Shown here one piece after another: positions 42,268-45,897 of a DNA stretch of 47,578 nucleotides; positions within the stretch are counted from its first letter, which is position 1; the number at the start of each line of letters is the position of its first letter. The stretch covers positions 1-47,578 of the IMG/VR virus record IMGVR_UViG_3300031566_000073; one strand, written 5' to 3'. The stretch is from a virus. A program made the translations under genes and the position numbers. Under the pieces are notes generated by a model, which was not told the DNA's origin, made no database searches, and saw only the letters and a list, made by a program, of their open reading frames with translations.

Positions 42268-42807
42268 TTAATGGTTTATCCTGATACGTCCCTGTTCCTT
42301 ACACCATTTGCACCGGCACGGCGGCGGCGTATCTTGATCATCATCCGCCTTGCCTGACCACCGCCACCTGTCCTCCGCGCCCATGAGGACGTGGGCTGGC
42401 ACGGTGAGCCCGTTGACGATCCGGGGGTTCTGGTGGTTGAAATCCTTTTTCCGCGCAACAAAGACTTCAAAGCTGGCGAGCGCTTCTTGGTCTGTTTGGC
42501 CGACATCAAAGGTCCAGTGATTAAACCATCCCAAGCACCATGTTTCGCGCTCAACAAAGATTGCTATGATTATTGCATCTGCCGCACCATTCCTAGTGGG
42601 TTGGAATTGAGCCCACCACCGCTCGGCATCTTCGAAAACCCCGTCCATAGTTGGTTCCTCGCGGAACATGATTGTATGACTTGTCGAGTTTCGGATTTTC
42701 CCTGCCGGGACGCCCTCCGTCTGCCACGGCGCGGCGTTATAATTCGGCTTCATGTCTTCAATCCAACGAGCAAGAATTCTGTAAACTGGATATGTCGGCT
42801 CGCTCAT
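42268..42807 (-). CDS. Hypothetical protein (179 aa)
   Basis: 179 residues from MSEPTYPVYRILARWIE, with a Trp-rich centre and two Cys pairs near the C-terminus (CRCKWC). Its AAGGAG directly follows the closing helix of the RNA element at 42821-42997, so translation may be controlled by that RNA. Confidence 0.6.
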   Translation of the reverse strand: MSEPTYPVYRILARWIEDMKPNYNAAPWQTEGVPAGKIRNSTSHTIMFREEPTMDGVFEDAERWWAQFQPTRNGAADAIIIAIFVERETWCLGWFNHWTFDVGQTDQEALASFEVFVARKKDFNHQNPRIVNGLTVPAHVLMGAEDRWRWSGKADDDQDTPPPCRCKWCKEQGRIRINH

Positions 42808-42820
42808 GGCATTCTCCTTA

Positions 42821-42997
42821 TAGAGCGGCCCGGCCGGATTCCCCACCCGGCTCCCGCCACGCGTCATTATGCCTGCGTTCTAGGTTTTCCCTCCGGTGCC
42901 GAGCGTCCATTAAGGTTCGGCAGACCTTGACGCCCTACCCGGCTAGGGCCGCGTGGCGCTTCAGGCTCCTGTCGCTGCCGCGACACGGGCCGCTCTA
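42821..42997 (-). ncRNA. Structured RNA element, copy 1
   Basis: 177-base non-coding element on the minus strand. A 12-bp perfect stem, TAGAGCGGCCCG/CGGGCCGCTCTA, closes it. Immediately inside is a 6-bp hairpin with loop GGCA (TGTCGC/GCGACA). A 9-bp long-range helix (CGCCACGCG/CGCGTGGCG) encloses two to three hairpins, including GCCCTA/TAGGGC. It sits between a stop codon and the SD of the gene at 42807. Copy 2 is at 45057-45122. Confidence 0.6.
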
Positions 42998-42998
42998 T

Positions 42999-43187
42999 TC
43001 ACTTGTCAGCCGCCTCGAACTCCAGAACCGCCTTGCGAACCCTCTCCCGCTCGCGGGGGCAATCGCACTTGCCATCAGCTATTTGGCACCAACTGATTGC
43101 ACAGTAATGGTCGTATGTCGCCTTGCGGCCTCTTGTCGGCCTTGCAAAGGGGCACTGGCCGACCGCACATCGCGCTATCTCACGCAC
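42999..43187 (-). CDS. CPFARP small protein, paralogue 2
   Basis: 62 residues from GTG 43187 behind AGGAGG: CAVGQCPFARP, YCAISWC and CDCPRERERVRKAVLEFE. It is closely related to the gene just upstream (43180-43380), a tandem duplicate. The last codons (ADK and TGA) form the flank of the RNA element. Confidence 0.65.
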   Translation of the reverse strand: MREIARCAVGQCPFARPTRGRKATYDHYCAISWCQIADGKCDCPRERERVRKAVLEFEAADK

Positions 43188-43380
43188 GGGAAACCTCCTC
43201 GAAGTCCAAGACGAGCTTGCGCACGCCTTCGCGCTCGCTCGGGCAATCACATAGGCCAGGCTTCAGATAACCACAGTGGATTACGCACCAAATCATGTTC
43301 TTGGCAACCTCATCGCGCGTGAACGGCGACGGCCTTGCAAACGGGCACTCGCCCAAGGCACATTTCATGATTTCTCGCAT
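43180..43380 (-). CDS. CPFARP small protein, paralogue 1
   Basis: 66 residues: MREIMKCALGECPFARPSP, WCVIHCGYLKPGLCDCPSE and EGVRKLVLDFEE. Six Cys are conserved with paralogue 2 and both end in a VRK-VL-FE helix. Metal binding is likely. It overlaps paralogue 2 by 8 bases. Confidence 0.7.
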   Translation of the reverse strand: MREIMKCALGECPFARPSPFTRDEVAKNMIWCVIHCGYLKPGLCDCPSEREGVRKLVLDFEEVSRA

Positions 43381-43748
43381 GGCTTGTCCTTTCGGTTCGC
43401 CCACTCGCTGAACATCCTGTCCCACCGCTCCTTGCCCTGAATCCGATAGAGGGCGTCCACGGCATTGTCGAGAAAGACTTCTACCCGCTGATACAGTTCC
43501 TCCAACGTGCCGTCGAAGCCCTCAAGTTCGGCGGCCGCATTGGAGCAAATGTTCTGGCCAATGGCATCGAGCAGCAGGGCCAAGGTCTCCGCGCGGGCCT
43601 TGACGTAACAGGGCTCGCAGGCATCGCCGATACGCTCAATCGAATGCGTCTCGCGTTCGAGGATTTCCCGTTCGCAGACTGCGCAGAGCGTGTACCCCGG
43701 CTTGCACAGCGGCGGGGGTTCGACTTTGTAATCGAAGTGCTCAGGCAT
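43365..43748 (-). CDS. Zinc-ribbon protein with helical C-terminus
   Basis: 127 residues. LCAVCERE and CEPCYVKA form a four-Cys zinc ribbon (about 22-51), followed by helices. Coupled by short overlap to the coiled-coil gene upstream; the junction GACGATGCCTGA also recurs elsewhere. Confidence 0.65.
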   Translation of the reverse strand: MPEHFDYKVEPPPLCKPGYTLCAVCEREILERETHSIERIGDACEPCYVKARAETLALLLDAIGQNICSNAAAELEGFDGTLEELYQRVEVFLDNAVDALYRIQGKERWDRMFSEWANRKDKPCEKS

Positions 43749-44397
43749 CGTCGTCCTCCTCGCCGCACAGTTTGATGCGGCCGCGCGAGTCGAGTTCTAG
43801 CGGCGGATCGTCATCGTCGGGCCCGATATTTTCGACGCGCGAGAGCATGCCTAGTCCGTCGATGTATGCGACGATCCATCCAGCCGCCTCTGCGGCGTCG
43901 CGGGCGCTTTTCACAACCTCGTTGTATTCTGTCTCTCGTGTCAGCAGGGGAACGCCGTTCTGCTCGTCGAGCAGGTCCAGAATGGCTATCCGCAACCGCC
44001 TCACAAGTCCCTGCAGCCGTTCGACTTCGCAAGCCAAACAGTCACCACCGTGGAATTTGTCTCGATGGTCGGGGCACAGCGGCATCCGGTCTAGTTGCTC
44101 GGCCTTCTTTTGCAGTTTCACGTTCTCGGCCTTGAGCGGCCGATACGCTGCCCACGCATAGCCGGAAAGCCAGCAATCGTGCATGGTGTCCGGCGGTTCG
44201 TCGGCATCGGATTTGCCATCTTCGTAGGCGTTATACCCGGCATTGAACTCGACTGCCTCCTCGGAGAAGCCATTGATTTTGCCTTGCAGCCTCTCCACCT
44301 CGGCGCGGAGTTCCTTAATCCAAGCATGCGCCGTCGGCAAGTCTATCGGTAGACCCTCATGGGCGGCGGCAAGTTGCGATTTGGTTATTCCTGGCAT
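43741..44397 (-). CDS. Coiled-coil protein with Cys/His middle
   Basis: 218 residues from ATG 44397 with GGGAGGGG upstream. Charged coiled coils (KELRAEVERLQGKI; KAENVKLQKKAEQL) bracket a region with NAGYNAYEDGK and CWLSGYAWAAY, like Rmf-type phage proteins, and a later CPDHRDKFHGGDCLAC metal-like knuckle. The C-terminus is acidic. Confidence 0.6.
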   Translation of the reverse strand: MPGITKSQLAAAHEGLPIDLPTAHAWIKELRAEVERLQGKINGFSEEAVEFNAGYNAYEDGKSDADEPPDTMHDCWLSGYAWAAYRPLKAENVKLQKKAEQLDRMPLCPDHRDKFHGGDCLACEVERLQGLVRRLRIAILDLLDEQNGVPLLTRETEYNEVVKSARDAAEAAGWIVAYIDGLGMLSRVENIGPDDDDPPLELDSRGRIKLCGEEDDDA

Positions 44398-44408
44398 GTC
44401 CCCTCCCT

Positions 44409-44696
44409 TCATAGGCACCAGCACGCGACCGCCCACAAGGCAACGATGCCCGCAGCGGCCATCAAAACGGCCCACAGAACGGTGTCCTCGCGGATGGCCG
44501 GCAGCTTGGCCGCGCGGTAGAACTCCCGCGCCCGGTGCTCAGCGTATGCATCGCGCGCCACGCCGAGTTCCCATGCAGTCAGGTGCGAGCGATAAAGTGG
44601 CGGTGCGGGGAGCGTCCCCCGCAGTGCCGGGTGGGGCCTACACCGGCTTTGTGCTGCCCGGTTCGGTCCCAAGCTATCAGTTGCATCGCGCTTCAT
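44409..44696 (-). CDS. Tail-anchored membrane protein
   Basis: 95 residues. A basic N-terminal half is followed by one C-terminal transmembrane helix (VLWAVLMAAAGIVALWAVACW). AGGAG is 7 bases upstream. Probably inserted in the inner membrane with its N-terminus in the cytoplasm. Confidence 0.55.
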   Translation of the reverse strand: MKRDATDSLGPNRAAQSRCRPHPALRGTLPAPPLYRSHLTAWELGVARDAYAEHRAREFYRAAKLPAIREDTVLWAVLMAAAGIVALWAVACWCL

Positions 44697-44705
44697 GGCT
44701 TGCTC

Positions 44706-45041
44706 CTATCGGACTCGGATCATCAGGGCGTCGGCCTCACGGGTTGTGGGCTCGGCGTTGACCTCATCAATGAGCTTGCCGATTTCGTTGCACCAGCGAA
44801 CAGCAGCGTCCTCTGACACAAAGGTGTAGCAAGCCGCGATATTGTCATGCGAGCGGCCCCCCCCGCGAATCCACAGAGTGAATCCGTCGATAGCAGGACA
44901 GTATGCGGATTTGATGGCCCAGTCGCCGTTTCGGGCGACCGTGCGCTCCAGGAAGTCTGAGCTTCGCAACGACTCGTCCTGATAGAGCACCTTGACCGTC
45001 ACACATCGGCCGCAACGCCAGATTGCCACGTCGAGTTTCAT
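44706..45041 (-). CDS. Hypothetical protein downstream of RNA copy 2
   Basis: 111 residues with a two-Cys start (WRCGRCVTVKV) and a mixed alpha/beta pattern. Its AAGGAG ribosome binding site directly follows the structured RNA copy 2, as for the gene at 42807. No family recognised. Confidence 0.6.
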   Translation of the reverse strand: MKLDVAIWRCGRCVTVKVLYQDESLRSSDFLERTVARNGDWAIKSAYCPAIDGFTLWIRGGGRSHDNIAACYTFVSEDAAVRWCNEIGKLIDEVNAEPTTREADALMIRVR

Positions 45042-45056
45042 GGTTTGCTCCTTATG

Positions 45057-45122
45057 GGGCCGTGCGTTTGGGTACTTCTGGAGACTGCCTCCGCCAAGTC
45101 CCTGCCGGGACTCGCACGGCCC
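45057..45122 (-). ncRNA. Structured RNA element, copy 2
   Basis: 66-base element on the minus strand. A 10-bp perfect stem, GGGCCGTGCG/CGCACGGCCC, closes it; just inside is a 6-bp hairpin with loop GGCA (AGTCCC/GGGACT) and a GGAG/CTCC hairpin. The flanks match copy 1: TGACAAGTGAATA before and ATAAGGAG after. The helices differ in sequence from copy 1 but keep pairing. Confidence 0.6.
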
Positions 45123-45140
45123 TATTCACTTGTCAAAACA

Positions 45141-45806: not shown

Positions 45807-45897
45807 TCGGGACGATCCTGGCCCCCGTAGAGACATAACGTGGTGGAGTCAGCATTGTTCCGGCGAATCCTAGAAATCTGCACATGGGGGAACATCG

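Follow-up and report, generated by a model that had tools for sequence, protein, structure and literature searches.

Nus-dependent antitermination in phages is known chiefly from the lambdoid phages, where boxB, a 5-bp hairpin with a GNRA-like pentaloop, is read by the N protein. HK022 put and Bacillus EAR, comparable to the elements described here in being structured and untranslated, sit within or ahead of operons and allow polymerase to read through terminators; EAR, an intergenic RNA, contains a pseudoknot, and to our knowledge neither of these RNAs has a nut-type flank. In bacterial pre-rRNA, boxA recruits NusB and S10, boxC takes NusA and the intervening RNA is looped out (PMC6614801, PMC10250234). 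Both boxA and the leader–trailer helix have been described for pre-16S rRNA (PMC10250234), and the S1-KH1-KH2 region of Mycobacterium tuberculosis NusA binds boxC, which is also part of the leader–trailer duplex (PMC6614801). A single U-to-G change in the Escherichia coli boxA prevents complex formation (PMC10250234). At E. coli suhB, a boxA lying by the Shine–Dalgarno sequence lets Nus factors repress translation (PMC5725501).

The window analysed here (the whole 47,578-nt stretch of DNA) is an IMG/VR virus record whose minus strand carries terminase, portal, internal virion protein, RecT and exonuclease genes, and in which no tRNA was found. Two elements described in an earlier note are present on the minus strand at 42814-43008 (copy 1) and 45048-45136 (copy 2), 4.6 and 2.4 kb from the right end, respectively, amid small genes without assigned function. 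Common to both are a 14-nt 5′ flank (TGACAAGTGAATAG), a closing helix, a hairpin with a GGCA loop and the segment ATAAGGAG, which holds AAGGAG and sits 6 bases 5′ of an ATG. The parts of the two elements are as follows.

42995-43008, minus strand: copy 1 nut-like flank TGACAAGTGAATAG, a boxC-like half without the U-rich boxA core
42986-42995, minus strand: copy 1 closing helix, 5′ strand GAGCGGCCCG; 13 bp counting the preceding ATA
42970-42985, minus strand: copy 1 hairpin TGTCGC-GGCA-GCGACA
42855-42958, minus strand: copy 1 interior domain, closed by a predicted 9-bp helix of CGCCACGCG (42958-42950) with CGCGTGGCG (42863-42855); single sequence
42897-42928, minus strand: copy 1 candidate H-type pseudoknot, with an AAGGT/ACCTT stem and a loop TGCCGA that would pair with TCGGCA
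42820-42832, minus strand: copy 1 closing helix, 3′ strand CGGGCCGCTC followed by TAT
42814-42819, minus strand: copy 1 RBS AAGGAG, 6 nt before the ATG at 42807
45122-45140, minus strand: copy 2 nut-like flank TGTTTTGACAAGTGAATAG, identical to TTCTTTGACAAGTGAATAG at 17 of 19 positions
45113-45122, minus strand: copy 2 closing helix, 5′ strand GGGCCGTGCG
45097-45112, minus strand: copy 2 hairpin AGTCCC-GGCA-GGGACT
45057-45066, minus strand: copy 2 closing helix, 3′ strand CGCACGGCCC
45048-45053, minus strand: copy 2 RBS AAGGAG, 6 nt before the ATG at 45041

The closing helices begin at the nut motif and contain no mismatches. In copy 1, positions 42995-42986 pair with 42832-42823, and the ATA/TAT extension lengthens the helix to 13 bp; in copy 2, positions 45122-45113 pair with 45066-45057 over 10 bp. 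Perfect helices of at least 10 bp that close within 200 nt have about 10 starts per strand in the 47.6 kb, and both copies of the flank fall exactly on one. The two GGCA-loop hairpins are the only ones with a 6-bp stem in the whole window. Compared with 200 dinucleotide shuffles, the folding z-scores are −3.8 for copy 1 and −3.1 for copy 2. An ungapped alignment of the shared parts keeps all 16 Watson–Crick pairs (10 from the closing helix and 6 from the hairpin) intact in both copies, and 6 of the 16 differ on both sides; the proposal that these are related structured RNAs with compensatory changes is supported. Sliding the partner strand by 1–3 columns leaves 0–1 two-sided changes, and the observed value was reached by 8 of 500 shuffles. 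Formal covariation power is low because the alignment has two rows only, and the test is limited to two sequences because no whole-element homologue was found.

Both elements are untranslated RNA features and not coding artefacts. In copy 1 every one of the three frames of the minus strand is interrupted by stops, and copy 2 (45055-45121) lies within no listed minus-strand ORF of at least 50 aa; translation is therefore not the explanation of these segments. The interiors of the two copies are unlike. For copy 1, the inner helix and the candidate pseudoknot are a suggestion drawn from one sequence; the pseudoknot turns up in 6 of 1000 dinucleotide shuffles. The copy 1 flank overlaps the stop codon of the gene at 42999-43193, and the earlier note had raised gene duplication as a source of part of the shared flank. 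That explanation is rejected because the neighbors of the two copies are unrelated, upstream as well as downstream. The genes immediately 3′ of the elements are:

42268-42807, minus strand: gene 3′ of copy 1, 179 aa, with a 40% identical homologue in the huge phage LR756500, where the element is absent
44706-45041, minus strand: gene 3′ of copy 2, 111 aa, with no relation to the gene that follows copy 1

Just 5′ of copy 1, the minus strand encodes tandem paralogous small cysteine-rich proteins (42999-43193 and 43180-43380) that are 49% identical.

As judged from sequence identity, TTGACAAGTGAATAG represents the 3′ portion of a nut site of the rrn type (boxA/boxC). This 3′ part, GACAAGTGAATAG as it appears in rRNA, tRNA and CRISPR leaders, is present as an exact 14-mer in both copies. 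Copy 2 keeps 17 of the 19 positions of the full nut site, and copy 1 the 3′ 14 nt only. The mycobacterial rrn sequence TTGTTTGAGAACTCAATAG we take to be the same nut site. In bacterial contigs, (TTCT)TTGACAAGTGAATAG is located 5′ of 16S, 23S and tRNA operons and of CRISPR arrays. For TTCTTTGACAAGTGAATAG, a 16S start lies within 400 nt at 5 of 21 bacterial loci, and Desulfovibrionaceae have it ahead of 16S rRNA; the same sequence is found 5′ of 23S rRNA in two genomes, one from a bipolaricaulote and one from the Phycisphaerales (L127 and L132), and 5′ of a tRNA operon in Thalassospira (L123). At four loci (L115, L119, L122 and L131; Planctomycetota and Acidomonas) the rrn-type nut sequence is directly upstream of a CRISPR array. 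An exact scan of viral contigs for TTGACAAGTGAATAG gave 104 stretches, many of which read TTCTTTGACAAGTGAATAG followed by tRNAs or tmRNA. Of 32 viral copies preceded by TCT, 11 lie no more than 500 nt from a tRNA or tmRNA, compared with 13 of 155 control positions; in a larger viral set the figure is 20 of 105 against 8. In two loci (L008 and L032) TTGACAAGTGAATAG lies between the inverted repeat CCCCAAGCTGG/GCCAGCAAGGGG, with two copies 393 nt apart in L008.

The U-rich boxA core (CUUU, the NusB/S10 portion) is absent from copy 1 and degenerate in copy 2. Copy 1 reads GGCGGC where the site has TTCTTT, and copy 2 reads TGTTTT, which is near, with two differences; neither copy is filed as a full boxA for these reasons.

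Does the nut-plus-helix layout recur in other viruses? We gathered distinct viral sites of TCTTTGACAANTGAATAG and looked for long helices starting where the motif ends, treating all non-Watson–Crick pairs alike and taking the expectation from other places in the same contigs. We excluded a family of Streptococcus phages from the helix counts, deciding so once the data had been seen, because the motif there is a sigma70 promoter with a −10 element. Helix scores of at least 13 were found at 7 of 91 viral nut sites (0.5 expected) and scores of at least 15 at 5 of 91 (0 expected). At the first seven loci listed here the helices are 13–28 bp long and close around one cistron or tRNAs, in the manner of a pre-rRNA leader–trailer helix; an eighth locus is listed last.

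L081: 28-bp helix including boxC, closing at 869 nt around a 232-aa ORF
L034: 22-bp helix around a 135-aa ORF
L215: 20-bp helix including boxC, around a 73-aa ORF
L146: 17-bp helix around a 204-aa ORF
L192: among the five best helices
L172: further case, helix around a small ORF
L024: further case, helix around tRNAs
L061: further case, with an 11-bp helix at the motif that closes around about 290 nt lacking any evident same-strand ORF, followed by AAAGGA and a start codon

The layout of a nut sequence plus a closing helix thus recurs in unrelated viruses. G-U pairs make up 7 of the 9 mismatches in the five best helices but 1 of 8 in the top controls, an excess that points to the strands pairing as RNA. 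None of the proteins enclosed by the viral helices matched a curated family above cut-off. The elements of the window look like compact versions of this arrangement, with helices (10–13 bp) shorter than those of the viral comparison set, and L061, where the helix stands directly before an RBS, is the closest to them in plan.

The Streptococcus-type phage loci (L026, L040, L048, L060, L062, L065 and L233) have an organization of their own. Here TTGACAAGTGAATAG is a sigma70 promoter within repeated units, in which a 14-bp inverted repeat closes about 270 nt containing strong hairpins and small ORFs. Each unit looks like a convergent-promoter arrangement resembling type I toxin–antitoxin systems.

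The description of the element as new is upheld by our searches. Rfam gave no match at gathering score or at E up to 10, the best chance matches having E values of 0.13–4.6, and BLASTN of the region against phages and plasmids returned nothing useful. Searches of phage, plasmid and sampled IMG/VR sequence turned up no homologous element, and exact DNA patterns (the flank with its spacing and AAGGAG, or the flank with the GGCA hairpin) yielded no homologue. The earlier note had looked to a covariance model for further copies, and none came of it: our model R1 gave only weak, flank-driven matches on 879 kb of loci, and two chance matches in GC-rich DNA, with the exact motif absent, on 392 genomes from the phylum of a Phycisphaerales genome (L122). 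Among IMG/VR relatives sought for RecT, terminase and the downstream protein, one weak RecT relative was recovered. The parts of the element are of known kinds, and no match to their combination in phage mRNA leaders was found in the open-access papers searched.

Leftward transcription would start at the right end of the window. In our best explanation, to which we give an even chance, the virus is an uncultured tailed phage and the elements belong to its early operon, which is read leftward. The last 10 kb contain a single minus-strand promoter of sigma70-like form, TTGACT-17-TAGTAT (in the segment 46052-45895), which leads directly into TTCTTTGGCA (46024-46015), a boxA-like core. In the leader that follows, GGCCCT can pair either with AGGGCC just 3′ of it or with AGGGCCGAAA, which holds the RBS region of the gene at 45895; this leader folds no better than its shuffles.

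We favor, with confidence that is evenly poised, a reading of the two elements as nut-like leader RNAs to which Nus factors of the host are recruited, whether for antitermination, for control of the neighboring RBS or for both. Each element consists of the boxC part of an rrn-type nut, the helix with its GGCA hairpin and the RBS of the next gene, in that order. As the RNA emerges, host NusA would bind the single-stranded flank, accompanied on copy 2, where boxA is nearly complete, by NusB and S10; the putative Nus-binding stretch is GACAAGUGAAUAG. The closing helix would loop out the untranslated RNA in the manner of the pre-rRNA leader–trailer helix, and the modified polymerase would be shielded from Rho while traversing both this structured, untranslated RNA and the genes that follow it. 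The helix would also place the Nus site a few bases from AAGGAG, and Nus binding could, as it does at suhB, affect how the next gene is translated. A phage protein may recognize the GGCA hairpin much as N recognizes boxB. A Nus-recruiting leader is favored because the nut-type flank, the closed helix and the RBS combine features of pre-rRNA and suhB. The principal weakness of this reading is the missing U-rich boxA core of copy 1, in view of what a single change does to the E. coli boxA, and it is because of this absence that we infer Nus recruitment and do not assert it. The two differences in that part of copy 2, the shortness of the helices relative to the viral comparison set and the failure to find a whole-element homologue also count against it.

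That the helix ends immediately 5′ of the RBS in both copies would also suit a cis-acting leader, riboswitch-like or protein-binding, that controls translation at AAGGAG and in which the flank is a remnant or part of a binding site. The GGCA loop stays constant between copies whose hairpin stems differ, and copy 1 has an extra domain with a possible H-type pseudoknot, both consistent with such a leader; the RBS, however, lies outside the helix and is not visibly sequestered in predicted folds, and no Rfam riboswitch matched even at the relaxed E value. Translational control of this kind also leaves the identity of the flank with an rrn nut sequence unexplained, and we consider it unlikely, while giving it appreciable weight. 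The earlier note, correct in describing related structured RNAs, had proposed riboswitch-like, processing or mobile roles and missed the rrn-type boxA/boxC flank.

Processing would mean that an RNase III-type activity cuts at the closing helix and frees a non-coding RNA from the operon mRNA that encodes it, with copy 2 as a shortened relative. A helix of 10–13 bp is short for RNase III, barring stacking with the hairpin, and the interiors differ between the copies; the plan of nut, helix and folded RNA is nevertheless that of pre-rRNA, and copy 1 folds far more strongly than shuffles (z −3.8). On these grounds we regard excision as improbable. The flank could instead be a promoter, either a sigma70 −35 element or one for a phage single-subunit polymerase, and the helix merely the start of the mRNA. 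Copy 2 does contain TTGACA, and the same 15-mer serves the Streptococcus phages as a genuine −35 element plus spacer, with TATGAT or TAAGAT 17 nt on, but no −10 hexamer lies 16–18 nt past this position in either copy and copy 1 reads CTGACA. The large ORFs of the window that were searched include no match to a phage RNA polymerase family, and bacterial copies of the motif sit in rRNA, tRNA and CRISPR leaders, all of which makes a promoter very improbable. The phage-polymerase form of the idea was dropped once the motif appeared in rRNA leaders. Least credible of all is the insertion of a mobile or duplicated palindrome at GTGAATA/ATAAGGAG. Two copies that are separated by 2.1 kb and share both boundaries might speak for it, but the genome has two copies only and none was found elsewhere, the 5′ boundary is a known functional motif and not a random target, and compensated stem divergence would be needless for passive insertion.

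Returning to the Nus-recruiting leader, we tentatively suggest a wider possibility, one that we would sooner doubt than accept, in which phages whose hosts are unrelated construct small imitations of pre-rRNA. A nut of the rrn type and a leader–trailer helix would be placed around a single early cistron, a tRNA group or a non-coding RNA, such that host Nus factors, and perhaps RNase III, treat the phage RNA as ribosomal; the elements of the window would then be compact members with a phage-specific GGCA hairpin in the wrapped RNA. If phages do use the host rrn nut with a closing helix, they would have a second, host-derived route to antitermination or leader control. Such a route would be recognizable from sequence alone and testable in standard reporters, and would help to annotate the extended untranslated regions that occur in the early operons and tRNA clusters of phages.

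Compared with the lambdoid nut site (boxA plus boxB), the elements of the window are alike in their phage early-operon position and in placing a small hairpin, its loop conserved, after a linear motif of Nus type. They differ in that the motif is of rrn type and the hairpin, with a 6-bp stem and a GGCA tetraloop, is enclosed in a larger closed helix; it is not of the boxB form, and no N-like protein was recognized among the early genes searched. In the boxA found upstream of CRISPR arrays, an rrn-type motif likewise serves a long untranslated RNA (PMC7862264), but there without a closing helix or an RBS. The suhB gene of E. coli and relatives likewise has a Nus-type motif beside a Shine–Dalgarno sequence (PMC5725501); its boxA is 6 nt from that site linearly, whereas in the window the two ends are joined by a closed helix of 66–177 nt. 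The bacterial rrn nut with its leader–trailer helix shares with the elements the same 5′ motif, followed at once by a helix that closes around folded RNA (PMC10250234). Relative to that arrangement, the elements of the window contain no rRNA, have a helix of 10–13 bp instead of at least 30 bp, carry a U-rich boxA that is degenerate (copy 2) or absent (copy 1), and end, on the 3′ side, in an RBS.
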